Made by a program: the position numbers and the translations under genes
Part shown: one piece after another, positions 33,736-37,352 of the stretch
Position numbering within the stretch: position 1 is the first letter of the stretch
How the letters are laid out: the number at the start of each line of letters is the position of its first letter
Notes under the pieces: generated by a model
Database searches by the model: none
The model's input: only the letters and a program-made list of their open reading frames with translations
What the model was told of the DNA's origin: nothing
Assembly (NCBI GenBank): GCA_026393075.1
Contig: JAPLAW010000015.1
Location: 62,001-126,000 of the forward strand
Direction: 5' to 3'
DNA length: 64,000 bases
From: Actinomycetota bacterium
Lineage (GTDB): Bacteria > Actinomycetota > Actinomycetes > Nanopelagicales > Nanopelagicaceae

Positions 33736-34644
33736 CTAATTACCTGCAGCTATCGCTTCTTGTGCAGCCGGAATCCCACCAACTGAGAGCGTCGCGTCTA
33801 GTGGGGTGTTGCGCTTAACGACAGCGAGTGCAATCGGACCTAACTCATGATGTCTTGCAACAGTGCCTAAATAACCAACGACTACCCCATCATTTTCCAC
33901 TGGGGTGCCAACTTTAGGAAAGTTAACTTCGGTACCATCAAGGTGCAACATAACTAAACGACGTGGTGGATTTCCTAGATTATTTATTTTTGCCACAGTT
34001 TCTTGGCCGCGGTAACAACCCTTATTTAGGTGTACCGCGCTGTTTAAAAGTCCAAGTTCGTTTGGAATAGATTTGTGATCAGTTTCAAAACCGATTCGGG
34101 GCAATCCAGCAGCGACTCGCATTGCATCAAGTGCCCAAGTACCCACTTGAGTTGCAACCGAATTAAAAGTTTCGATCATATTCGCTAATTCGGCGCGTGG
34201 CACAAGTGCATATGGCCCAGCTATTTCATCCATCTTGCCTGGGGCGCGCAATACTGCAAATTCAGCCGTCGCATCGTGGATTTCTACTTGGGCGCGAAAT
34301 TTCATTTTTTCTAAATGTGAAATCAATTCAGCACTTCGACCCGGATTAACTACCAGCCAAGTGGTGTCACCATCATCAACTAAAAAGAATTGATGCTCGA
34401 TGTGGCCTTTCGGATCTAAAATCAAAGCGTGCTGCCATTGACCAGCTAATAAATTTTCATGATCCTGGGTAGTTAAAAGATGTAGCCAAGTTAAACGTTC
34501 TGGCCCAGATAGTGCGACAACTTCATAGTGTGATAAATCTGCCCAAGCAGTGCCAGCTTCGAGTGCTCGTTGTTCTTTTACTGGATCCCCGAAATGCCAT
34601 ACAGCACCTTTATCGGGACCGTCCTCAACGAGTACGGCGCTCAT
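33736..34644 (-). CDS. ygfZ: Folate-binding YgfZ/GcvT-like protein
   Basis: LNKGCYRGQETVAKINNLGNPPRRLVMLHLDG. Confidence 0.92.
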   Translation of the reverse strand: MSAVLVEDGPDKGAVWHFGDPVKEQRALEAGTAWADLSHYEVVALSGPERLTWLHLLTTQDHENLLAGQWQHALILDPKGHIEHQFFLVDDGDTTWLVVNPGRSAELISHLEKMKFRAQVEIHDATAEFAVLRAPGKMDEIAGPYALVPRAELANMIETFNSVATQVGTWALDAMRVAAGLPRIGFETDHKSIPNELGLLNSAVHLNKGCYRGQETVAKINNLGNPPRRLVMLHLDGTEVNFPKVGTPVENDGVVVGYLGTVARHHELGPIALAVVKRNTPLDATLSVGGIPAAQEAIAAGN

Positions 34645-35063
34645 TACTTACTTTCGGCGGCAAAACATGCAGAACATGTGCCATAAACGGCAAAGTGCGT
34701 GACATCTGTTTTAAAACCATAATCATCGGCCAGCTCATTTACAAAGTTAGCCGCAACATCAATTGGTGCATCGCCAACTGAACCACAAACTCCGCAAACT
34801 AAATGTAGGTGAGTTAGCTCTTCGGCTGCGTGATAGGTAGCGCCGCCATGGCCCAAGTGAGTGTGCTGAACTAAGCCCACATTTTCCAGGGTTTCTAAGT
34901 TGCGATAGACCGTTGAAAGATTAATTCCAGGATGTGTTTGGCGTACTTTTTCAGCTACTTCTTCTGGTGTGGCATGACCAAGTTCGCGGACGGCAGCTAA
35001 AACTAATTCACGTTGCGGAGTTAAGCGCAAACCTTTATCGCGTAATTCATGTTGCTCAGCCAT
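34644..35063 (-). CDS. Fur-family metalloregulator (Zur/FurB-like)
   Basis: RLTPQRELVLAAVRELGHATPEEVA, STVYRNLETLENVGLV, HLHLVCGVCG, and YGTCSACFA. Confidence 0.9.
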   Translation of the reverse strand: MAEQHELRDKGLRLTPQRELVLAAVRELGHATPEEVAEKVRQTHPGINLSTVYRNLETLENVGLVQHTHLGHGGATYHAAEELTHLHLVCGVCGSVGDAPIDVAANFVNELADDYGFKTDVTHFAVYGTCSACFAAESK

Positions 35064-35076
35064 GAATGAATTCTAC

Positions 35077-35400
35077 TTAAATTTCTACAACTAAATCGAC
35101 TGGAGTGCCTTTGGCAGCAATGACTTTACGTTCTACGCGCGCTCCTGAGGCCAGGATTACTAAGGTCCAGGCGCCAGGAGCGGCGAAGAATCGAAATTGC
35201 CCGTCTGCGTTAGTTGGAACTTCTGCGGTGAACTCACCAGTTGAATCCAATAATCGAACATATGCGTTACCAACGGGAGCTCCATTTGGAACTCCATCAC
35301 CTTCCCCGTCCCTGAGAATGACACCTTGAATTAAGGTTTGCGTTGATAAATCAATGCCAGAAATATCTGGACCACCTGGAGTTGCGCCGCAAGTTCTCAT
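35077..35400 (-). CDS. DUF1416 family protein
   Basis: IQGVILRDGEGDGVPNGAPVGNAYVRLLDSTGEFTAEVPTNADGQFRFFAAPGAWTL; follows a sulfurtransferase gene. Confidence 0.85.
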   Translation of the reverse strand: MRTCGATPGGPDISGIDLSTQTLIQGVILRDGEGDGVPNGAPVGNAYVRLLDSTGEFTAEVPTNADGQFRFFAAPGAWTLVILASGARVERKVIAAKGTPVDLVVEI

Positions 35401-36233
35401 TAGGCGCCTATCGCAACCGGAACGCCAACTAATGAACCGTATTCAGTCCATGAACCGTCGTAGTTCTTTACATTTGAAAGACCCAATAATTCGTGAAGTA
35501 CGAACCATGAAAATGCGGAACGCTCACCAATACGGCAATACGCGATGGTGTCTTTTGCTAAATCGACACCAGCGCCTACGTAAAGTTCCTTTAGTTCGGC
35601 ATCTGATTTAAAAGTGCCATCTTCATTGGCAGCTTTTGACCACGGAATATTCTTTGCAGTTGGAATATGTCCTTTAATCTGACCGCTCTCTTGAAGCAAA
35701 TGTGCAGGTGCTGCTAGCTCACCACTGAATTCTGCCGGCGAGCGAACATCTACGATATTTAACTTACCGATTGCTGAAATAACTTCATCGCGATACGCAC
35801 GAATTGAGTTATCACGCTCCTTGGCTACATAACTAGTAGCTGTGCGGGTTGGCACAGTTGTAACAAACGGACGAGCATCTAGCTCCCAGCGCTTGCGACC
35901 ACCGTCTAACAATCGGACATCGGCGTGGCCGTAAATTTTAAAGTACCAGAAAGCATAGGTGGCAAACCAGTTGTTATTACCACCATAGAGAACGACAGTG
36001 GTGTCCGGTGCAATTCCACTCTTAGAAAGTAGAGCTTCGAACTTTTCTTTCGAAATCAAGTCGCGAATTAAGCCATCTTGTAGATCATCACGCCAGTGAA
36101 AAGTGATTGCTCCTTCAATATGGCCTTGCTCATAAAGCGCAGTATCTTCATCTACTTCGACTAGAACGACTGTTGGATTATTCAGGTTTTGAGCTACCCA
36201 ATCAGCACTTACAAGTGAGGTTTCGCGTGACAT
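35400..36233 (-). CDS. sseA: Thiosulfate sulfurtransferase (rhodanese family)
   Basis: TVVLVEVDEDTALYEQGHIEGAITFHWRDDLQD and TIAYCRIGERSAFSWFVLHELLG. Confidence 0.92.
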   Translation of the reverse strand: MSRETSLVSADWVAQNLNNPTVVLVEVDEDTALYEQGHIEGAITFHWRDDLQDGLIRDLISKEKFEALLSKSGIAPDTTVVLYGGNNNWFATYAFWYFKIYGHADVRLLDGGRKRWELDARPFVTTVPTRTATSYVAKERDNSIRAYRDEVISAIGKLNIVDVRSPAEFSGELAAPAHLLQESGQIKGHIPTAKNIPWSKAANEDGTFKSDAELKELYVGAGVDLAKDTIAYCRIGERSAFSWFVLHELLGLSNVKNYDGSWTEYGSLVGVPVAIGA

Positions 36234-36292: not shown

Positions 36293-36730
36293 TTAGCGAC
36301 GTGCGCGAAGCAGCAATAAATAAACTTCGCAGCCTAAGCAGTAATTAAAGGCTGTATTTAAGAAAGCTGCTGCAAGCGCAAAGCCGGTTGCGATAGTGAA
36401 AACGATTGTGACTCCTGATAACAGTCCAGCAACTGCAGTTGCTGTGAATAAGAATCCAACTGCTTGAGCAAATTTAGGTGGTCGCACATCTTCAGGTACA
36501 AATTCACCCTTTAAACGTGGCTTGATCAAGCTCTTGAATAAAAATGCATAAGGCGTGAATTGTGGGCCTTTAGTCGCACCAATTAGAAATACTGCTAATT
36601 GAAAAGCGGTCAGCGGCAGTGATTGGGTTGCTAGCGCAGTAGCTAAAACAAAAACTGTAATCGCTGCTGAAAAACGGGGACCACGTGCATCAATTACTAC
36701 TGAGGTCTCTTTTTTATCTAAAGTTGTCAT
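36293..36730 (-). CDS. DUF4395 membrane protein
   Basis: FSAAITVFVLATALATQS and FCLGCEVYLLL-type ending (NYCLGCEVYLLLLRARR). Confidence 0.85.
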   Translation of the reverse strand: MTTLDKKETSVVIDARGPRFSAAITVFVLATALATQSLPLTAFQLAVFLIGATKGPQFTPYAFLFKSLIKPRLKGEFVPEDVRPPKFAQAVGFLFTATAVAGLLSGVTIVFTIATGFALAAAFLNTAFNYCLGCEVYLLLLRARR

Positions 36731-36757
36731 TTGTTTCCTACTTCTTTTTATTGTGGG

Positions 36758-36791
36758 TTACTAAAACTGGAATAATTTAAGTTTTAGTTAC
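36758..36791 (-). promoter_or_regulatory. Stem-loop overlapping the leader-ORF stop codon (candidate attenuator/translational switch)
   Basis: gttactaaaact (36758-36769) and agttttagttac (36780-36791): 11 of 12 complementary positions, 10-nt loop. Confidence 0.5.
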
Positions 36792-36867
36792 TACACAGCG
36801 AGACAGCTAAACGTCCGTAATCAAGTACGCGACGCTTGGTAAAGAAGCTATCTAAGGCGAAAGACAT
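36784..36867 (-). CDS. Putative cysteine-responsive leader peptide MSFALDSFFTKRRVLDYGRLAVSLCSN (not in ORF track)
   Basis: TKRRxxDYxRLAxSLC resembles actinobacterial leader-peptide uORFs; upstream of DUF4395/sulfurtransferase; -10-like TATTCT 6 nt before ATG suggests leaderless translation. Confidence 0.6.
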   Translation of the reverse strand: MSFALDSFFTKRRVLDYGRLAVSLCSN

Positions 36868-36923
36868 GTCGTAAGAATAAAGTGGGTGGGCAAGAAAGCC
36901 TAATTGCGAGTTACTTGCAGGTG

Positions 36924-37352
36924 TCACTTAATCGCTGCGAGCGTGGCTAAAACTTGGTCACGCTTAGGTGCACCAACGGCTCGCCCTACTTCAACACCTG
37001 AACTGTTCAGAATTAGCGTGGTTGGGGTAGAGCGAATATCCAACTTGCGTACTAATTCCAGATTTGTTTCAGCATCTATTTCAACATGACGCACATCGCT
37101 TAAGTCGGCGACTACGTTTTCGAGCAAGGTGCGAGTTGCGCGACAAGGGGTACAAAAGGCTGACGAAAATTGCACCAAGGTCGCCCTTGATCCGAGATCC
37201 CCACCGATTATCGATGCTGTTAAAGCTTTGCCAGAGATGGCTTTGGCTTGAATCTTGCCCCGCGACTTTTGATACCAGAGGCCGTAAGCAGTAGCAGCCC
37301 CTAGCACGATAAGAATTGGTAGGAAAGATTTCACGAGAGTAGTCTGTGCCAC
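36924..37352 (-). CDS. Membrane-anchored thioredoxin-like protein
   Basis: N-terminal TM; LVQFSSAFCTPCRATRTLLENV and STPTTLILNSSG. Confidence 0.9.
   Translation of the reverse strand: MAQTTLVKSFLPILIVLGAATAYGLWYQKSRGKIQAKAISGKALTASIIGGDLGSRATLVQFSSAFCTPCRATRTLLENVVADLSDVRHVEIDAETNLELVRKLDIRSTPTTLILNSSGVEVGRAVGAPKRDQVLATLAAIK

Follow-up and report, generated by a model that had tools for sequence, protein, structure and literature searches.

Whether a reading frame of 27 codons with a single cysteine codon can report the supply of cysteine to the operon behind it is the question raised by this locus. It lies in a 64,000-nt stretch of DNA from a freshwater actinobacterium, here called the window, for which the initial annotation had proposed an uncatalogued leader peptide of the pattern RRxxDxxRxxxxxC, with a -10-like box placed for a leaderless transcript and a hairpin over its stop codon, as a regulator of sulfurtransferase genes.

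A short ORF at the head of a DUF4395 operon

The minus-strand ORF at 36867-36784 is present, is absent from the annotation and recurs in dozens of relatives; the TATTCT six bases before its ATG and the DUF4395 start at 36730 likewise stand as proposed. The locus comprises the following features.

36924..37352, minus strand: thioredoxin-like gene, upstream of the leader and a conserved neighbour
36904..36919, minus strand: palindrome TGCAAGTAACTCGCAA, a Nur-box-like (FUR-type) putative operator
36874..36879, minus strand: -10-like TATTCT, ending six bases before the leader ATG
36784..36867, minus strand: leader peptide ORF of 27 codons, ATG at 36867, product MSFALDSFFTKRRVLDYGRLAVSLCSN and stop, conserved in relatives
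36793..36795, minus strand: single Cys codon, TGT, codon 14 from the first Arg of RR
36735..36740, minus strand: Shine-Dalgarno-like TAGGAA of DUF4395
36293..36730, minus strand: DUF4395 protein (PF14340, E 5e-40), first gene 3' of the leader
35400..36233, minus strand: rhodanese-type sulfurtransferase, optional operon member
35077..35400, minus strand: DUF1416 protein, optional operon member
34644..35063, minus strand: FUR-family regulator, nearest solved structure 3EYY (S. coelicolor Nur)

The only Cys codon of the window leader is the third from its end (LCSN-stop), and the stop codon, TAA at 36786-36784, is separated from the DUF4395 start by a spacer of 53 nt. The -10-like box is placed such that a transcript would begin at the start codon of the ORF, and we infer a leaderless-type leader; TAnnnT is found at the same phase in all 56 related leaders and at 11 of 11 loci that have no leader. 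The ORF could also be read from a GTG as 47 codons (36784-36927), but this longer version was rejected, as its added part covers the conserved operator and the -10 box.

Conservation of the leader and its relation to mycobacterial Cys leaders

A search of 136 genomes of the same genus gives ≈60 strong matches to the leader profile, and all fetched matches precede DUF4395 except two weak ones, L098 and L099, the former preceding a secreted rhodanese. We find the leader before DUF4395 at 63 distinct loci, every one with a TAnnnT-phased start; among named genomes, Candidatus Planktophila and other Nanopelagicaceae come nearest, and conservation of the peptide extends across the genus and beyond. 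Conservation of RRxxDxxR...C across orthologous loci, the check suggested at the outset, holds at the codon level, with a core dN/dS of 0.145 (49 core sequences); judged from these sequences, the leader ORF is under selection. In the core the R, R, D, R and Cys residues undergo nil or almost nil amino-acid change, and the Arg codons vary synonymously.

The Cys stands at position 14 from the first Arg of RR in 82 of 82 distinct peptides. This set spans several operons and families, and was collected by searches that favour the RRxxDxxRxxxxxC spacing and could miss leaders with other spacings. Around this fixed stretch lengths vary, with 4-21 residues before RR and 0-6 after the Cys, and the Cys position is the same in all 92 distinct DNA cores found with a pattern that leaves the Cys out. 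The single-Cys form proposed for the window is common in the group, as 42 of the 82 peptides have one Cys.

These features bear on whether the peptide is sensed, and not the codon only. In nascent-chain-assisted arrest, RRxxDxxR in the exit tunnel would make one Cys codon enough to stall the ribosome, consistent with residues that are invariant while their codons drift, with an exact RR-to-Cys distance between flanks of variable length, and with a motif common to leaders of different operons that have different RNA stems. Set against this are the bias of the searches towards that very spacing and the possibility that the Arg codons serve RNA structure. We regard such arrest as possible but short of an even chance, and it would refine cysteine attenuation, not replace it; the proposal in its general form, in which RRxxDxxR placed exactly 14 residues from a single Cys would make the slow decoding of that one codon a stall with a regulatory effect in several sulfur operons and actinobacterial families, is offered tentatively as a somewhat doubtful one. 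The 14-residue spacing provides a direct test of codon-only versus codon-plus-peptide sensing.

The best NCBIfam match of the window leader is NF042933 (Ms5788A family Cys-rich leader peptide), with 16.5 bits (E 0.005) against a curated cut-off of 45 bits. The Cys-rich C-terminal end of that family is missing in the window leader, whose one Cys occupies the homologous position 14. The genomic position of the family is found here as well, with a thioredoxin-like gene upstream and DUF4395, rhodanese and DUF1416 downstream. Members above the cut-off in other genomes show the same locus and motif, e.g., VSARLEPMLTKRRAVDLCRIAGCCCCCSC, which has TAnnnT; three of them are poly-Cys, of which L123 and L124 sit between a thioredoxin-like gene and DUF4395-rhodanese, the gene order of the window, and the other members above the cut-off are followed by rhodanese and DUF1416.

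The published mycobacterial Cys leader sits before cysA2/Msmeg_5788 (PMC4633059), and the M. smegmatis Cys leaders are reported to control downstream translation by attenuation (PMC9031893; PMC13236596). The RRxxDxxRxxxxxC pattern fits the window leader, which occupies the same locus as this known Cys attenuator, in agreement with the initial annotation. By motif and gene order the window leader is a positional counterpart of Ms5788A, a single-Cys variant and not an assigned family member, and it most likely senses cysteine in the manner known from mycobacteria, in a form unusual for its single Cys. It shares with the Ms5788A family the locus order, the RRxxDxxR core and the leaderless-type promoter spacing; it differs in having one Cys and no Cys run, an A+T-rich conserved stem, an optional sulfurtransferase and a Nur-like gene that ends the operon.

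Two other sets of known leaders invite comparison. The polycysteine leaderless short ORFs of M. smegmatis (Canestrari et al. 2020), as citing papers describe them, are likewise short leaderless-type Cys ORFs before sulfur genes, with translation attenuation as their reported mode (PMC9031893, PMC13236596), and the TAnnnT phase of the window leader would fit, as in that description, a start at the first codon of the ORF; here, in contrast to those accounts, there are no contiguous Cys codons and the effect is a putative one. The candidate cys leaders of Mycobacterium, P. acnes and B. longum (PMC1262725) are also short ORFs that lie before sulfur genes and have their Cys codon(s) close to the stop, but were described without a conserved hairpin and with the mode of regulation left open, whereas the loci studied here share a conserved stem between the Cys-codon region and the ribosome-binding site; the conserved structure lacking in that earlier work is supplied by the present genomes. 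Literature searches for leader peptides in Nanopelagicales returned nothing relevant. A leader acting as proposed would carry cysteine sensing by the ribosome beyond mycobacteria, into freshwater actinobacteria that are abundant and streamlined, and it suggests that such leaders can do without a run of Cys codons.

RNA structure between leader and DUF4395

Two nested elements are predicted in the RNA between the Cys codon and DUF4395.

36757..36791, minus strand: stop-overlapping hairpin, 5' arm GTAACTAAAACT (36791-36780), 3' arm AGTTTTAGTAAC (36768-36757)
36753..36796, minus strand: lower stem, GUG 36796-36794 (Cys-codon region) pairing with CAC 36755-36753 on the ribosome-binding-site side

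The hairpin was initially described as carrying the stop codon in its 5' arm with 11 of 12 positions paired, which is what we find, and with a loop of 10 nt, which is corrected here to 11; it contains a perfect 9-bp core (36788-36780/36768-36760). The window RNA from leader to DUF4395 folds better than its dinucleotide shuffles (z -2.8), and the mean z across related loci is -2.3. Among the 58 of the 63 leader-DUF4395 loci that entered the fold tests, 37 have an unbroken helix of 8 bp or longer over the leader stop, compared to 3.9 expected from shuffles, and the stem is formed by sequences that differ between clades, e.g., ACTAAAACT/AGTTTTAGT, GTAATTGTT/AACAATTAC and TTAGTTT/AAACTAA. In these models the stop hairpin is more than chance, and we take it to cap a longer stem that extends in the direction of the DUF4395 ribosome-binding site; the Cys-codon region is predicted at the 58 loci to pair at the Shine-Dalgarno sequence or immediately 5' of it. 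The two halves of the lower stem pair better within than between species at 45 of 58 loci (p 2e-7, uncorrected for ancestry); the equivalent swap test of the upper stem is biased, its arms having been picked from the fold, and the lower-stem result alone serves as evidence.

A sequence-only alignment of the loci yields no consensus stem at the stop, because MAFFT left the 3' arms unaligned. Consensus folding on that alignment gives a sole hairpin, inside the RR...R coding stretch; in the window, 36808-36837, coding for KRRVLDYGRL, can fold in this way, as can the corresponding stretch in related genomes, and codons alone could produce such a hairpin.

We propose that the leader would operate as follows. 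A leaderless mRNA would begin at or beside the ATG at 36867, and a ribosome would read the 27-codon peptide. With cysteinyl-tRNA plentiful, it would finish and leave, and the leader end and spacer would fold into the stem that spans the Cys-codon region and the stop codon towards the DUF4395 ribosome-binding site, such that DUF4395 and the downstream genes would be translated little. With cysteinyl-tRNA scarce, the ribosome would pause at the Cys codon and cover the 5' side of the stem, and the ribosome-binding site would stay open. Cysteine-dependent translation attenuation of this kind is, in our judgement, the probable mode of action.

When a ribosome stalled at Cys is placed over the 5' side, the modelled cost of opening the -20 to +14 footprint falls by a mean of 4.6 kcal/mol over the 58 loci versus 0.86 for shuffles (p 6e-9, uncorrected for ancestry), and the gain beats the locus's own shuffles at 48 of 58. 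The choice of measure matters, in that this wide 30S footprint gives a positive result and the narrow Shine-Dalgarno-to-ATG measure does not: by the latter, sequestration over all loci is not above shuffles and is lower overall, and in the window the opening cost lies below that of its shuffles, that is, the site is more open. For the window sequence the modelled opening gain is -0.2 kcal/mol, and a stalling effect is not predicted. Its sisters have a longer lower stem, GUUGUG/CACAAC, compared to GCUGUG/CACAAU in the window, with a C-A mismatch and a G-U pair, and attenuation in this genome would have to work through that weakened stem. The stem is stronger in relatives such as L078 and L007. 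On these models the RNA mechanism is supported for the group and unproven for the window copy.

Attenuation could in principle also act on transcription. A hairpin over a leader stop is a common geometry for attenuators, and the conserved one here could be read as an intrinsic terminator, but none was found between the leader and the first gene, and the stem is rich in A+T, with ACCCAC behind it in place of a U run; we consider this very unlikely. A Rho-dependent form, with the spacer left ribosome-free after leader translation as the Rho entry region, was put forward, and only weakly predicted, for the hairpin-less cys leaders of mycobacteria (PMC1262725). Here the spacer measures only 53 nt and is partly structured and, unlike the mycobacterial case, a conserved stem is present, and we judge Rho entry improbable. 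The region contains no Rfam element; the sole hit, on the opposite strand and below threshold, is a chance match.

Operon content, the Nur-like regulator and leaders of other sulfur operons

The proposal that the leader controls sulfurtransferase genes holds only in part: the leader lies upstream of an operon that contains a sulfurtransferase, but the sulfurtransferase as such is not the target. Close sisters (L152-L154, L174) have the order leader-DUF4395-FUR, with neither rhodanese nor DUF1416 between, so the sulfurtransferase is not a constant target. The usual targets of the leader are DUF4395 and the Nur-like FUR gene, with the sulfurtransferase and DUF1416 optional. The rhodanese-DUF1416 pair between DUF4395 and the Nur-like gene is present or absent among L152-L154, L158-L161, L174 and others. 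Public MAGs titled Bifidobacterium breve (loci L152, L154, L165, L181, L186) carry Nanopelagicaceae-type loci, with DUF4395 up to 88% identical to that of the window, and their titles look wrong.

On a tree of DUF4395 plus FUR, the presence of the leader must have changed at least 7 times and that of the rhodanese at least 10 times; the leader is dispensable in some lineages, since it was lost there. At the 11 leader-less loci the leaderless position belongs to DUF4395, whose own ATG is TAnnnT-phased. These loci (L011, L015, L018-L023, L025, L027, L030) look as if the leader had been excised from ATG to ATG, with several independent losses on the tree.

The palindrome upstream of the leader is close to TGCGAATAATTCGCA, with its centre 44-45 bp upstream of the start codon, at 66 of 67 loci, including the 11 without a leader. 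The published Nur box is tTGCaa-N5-ttGCAA (PMC3919588), and the window-type palindrome fits it. The FUR protein of the operon is by far closest to 3EYY, the structure of S. coelicolor Nur (E 5e-45 versus 1e-15 for the next best), and thus both marks of Nur membership, a nearest solved structure that is Nur and a Nur-box-like operator at the promoter, are found. By sequence, protein and palindrome both resemble the S. coelicolor Nur system, which differs in that the putative target here is a thiol/sulfur-type operon. The Nur-like gene ends an operon whose promoter carries this rigidly placed palindrome, an arrangement that may reflect autoregulation.

This regulator at its palindrome might in fact be what controls the operon, the ORF serving for translational coupling or being a relic, in either case with no sensing of cysteine. 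Two observations are in keeping with such a reading: the operator varies less than the leader and persists where the leader is lost, and the lower stem is weakened in the window. The reading leaves unexplained an invariant Cys at fixed spacing and the same leader before other sulfur operons, and we think it unlikely to be correct. Under cysteine attenuation, a Cys leader before a Nur-like gene that has its own type of operator at the promoter would make a FUR-family circuit depend in part on cysteine status.

A search for a second leader in the window's own genome found none, and its CysO-CysM-type operon has no leader. That locus (L232, contig C56) has genes for a Mec-type protease, a ThiS/CysO-like protein and a CysM-like protein in a row, without a Cys leader, and the genome probably makes its cysteine by way of these genes. 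Elsewhere in the family, related RRxxDxxR...C peptides stand before two further sulfur operons, one of a secreted rhodanese with a YeeE/YedE-like transporter (e.g., MFTKRRVIDFCRVNTSAC) and one of cysK-cysE (MLEINDWYFTRRRVIDFGRACTCACSD); the names of the genes behind these leaders were read from their sequences. The former class comprises L046, L102, L105, L106, L111, L114 and L119, some of which have no TAnnnT at this phase and a purine-rich stretch before the ATG, and may not be leaderless. The cysK-cysE class comprises L041 and L056, and in L056 the stop-overlapping stem, ACTAAAACT...AGTTTTAGT, is identical to that of the window.
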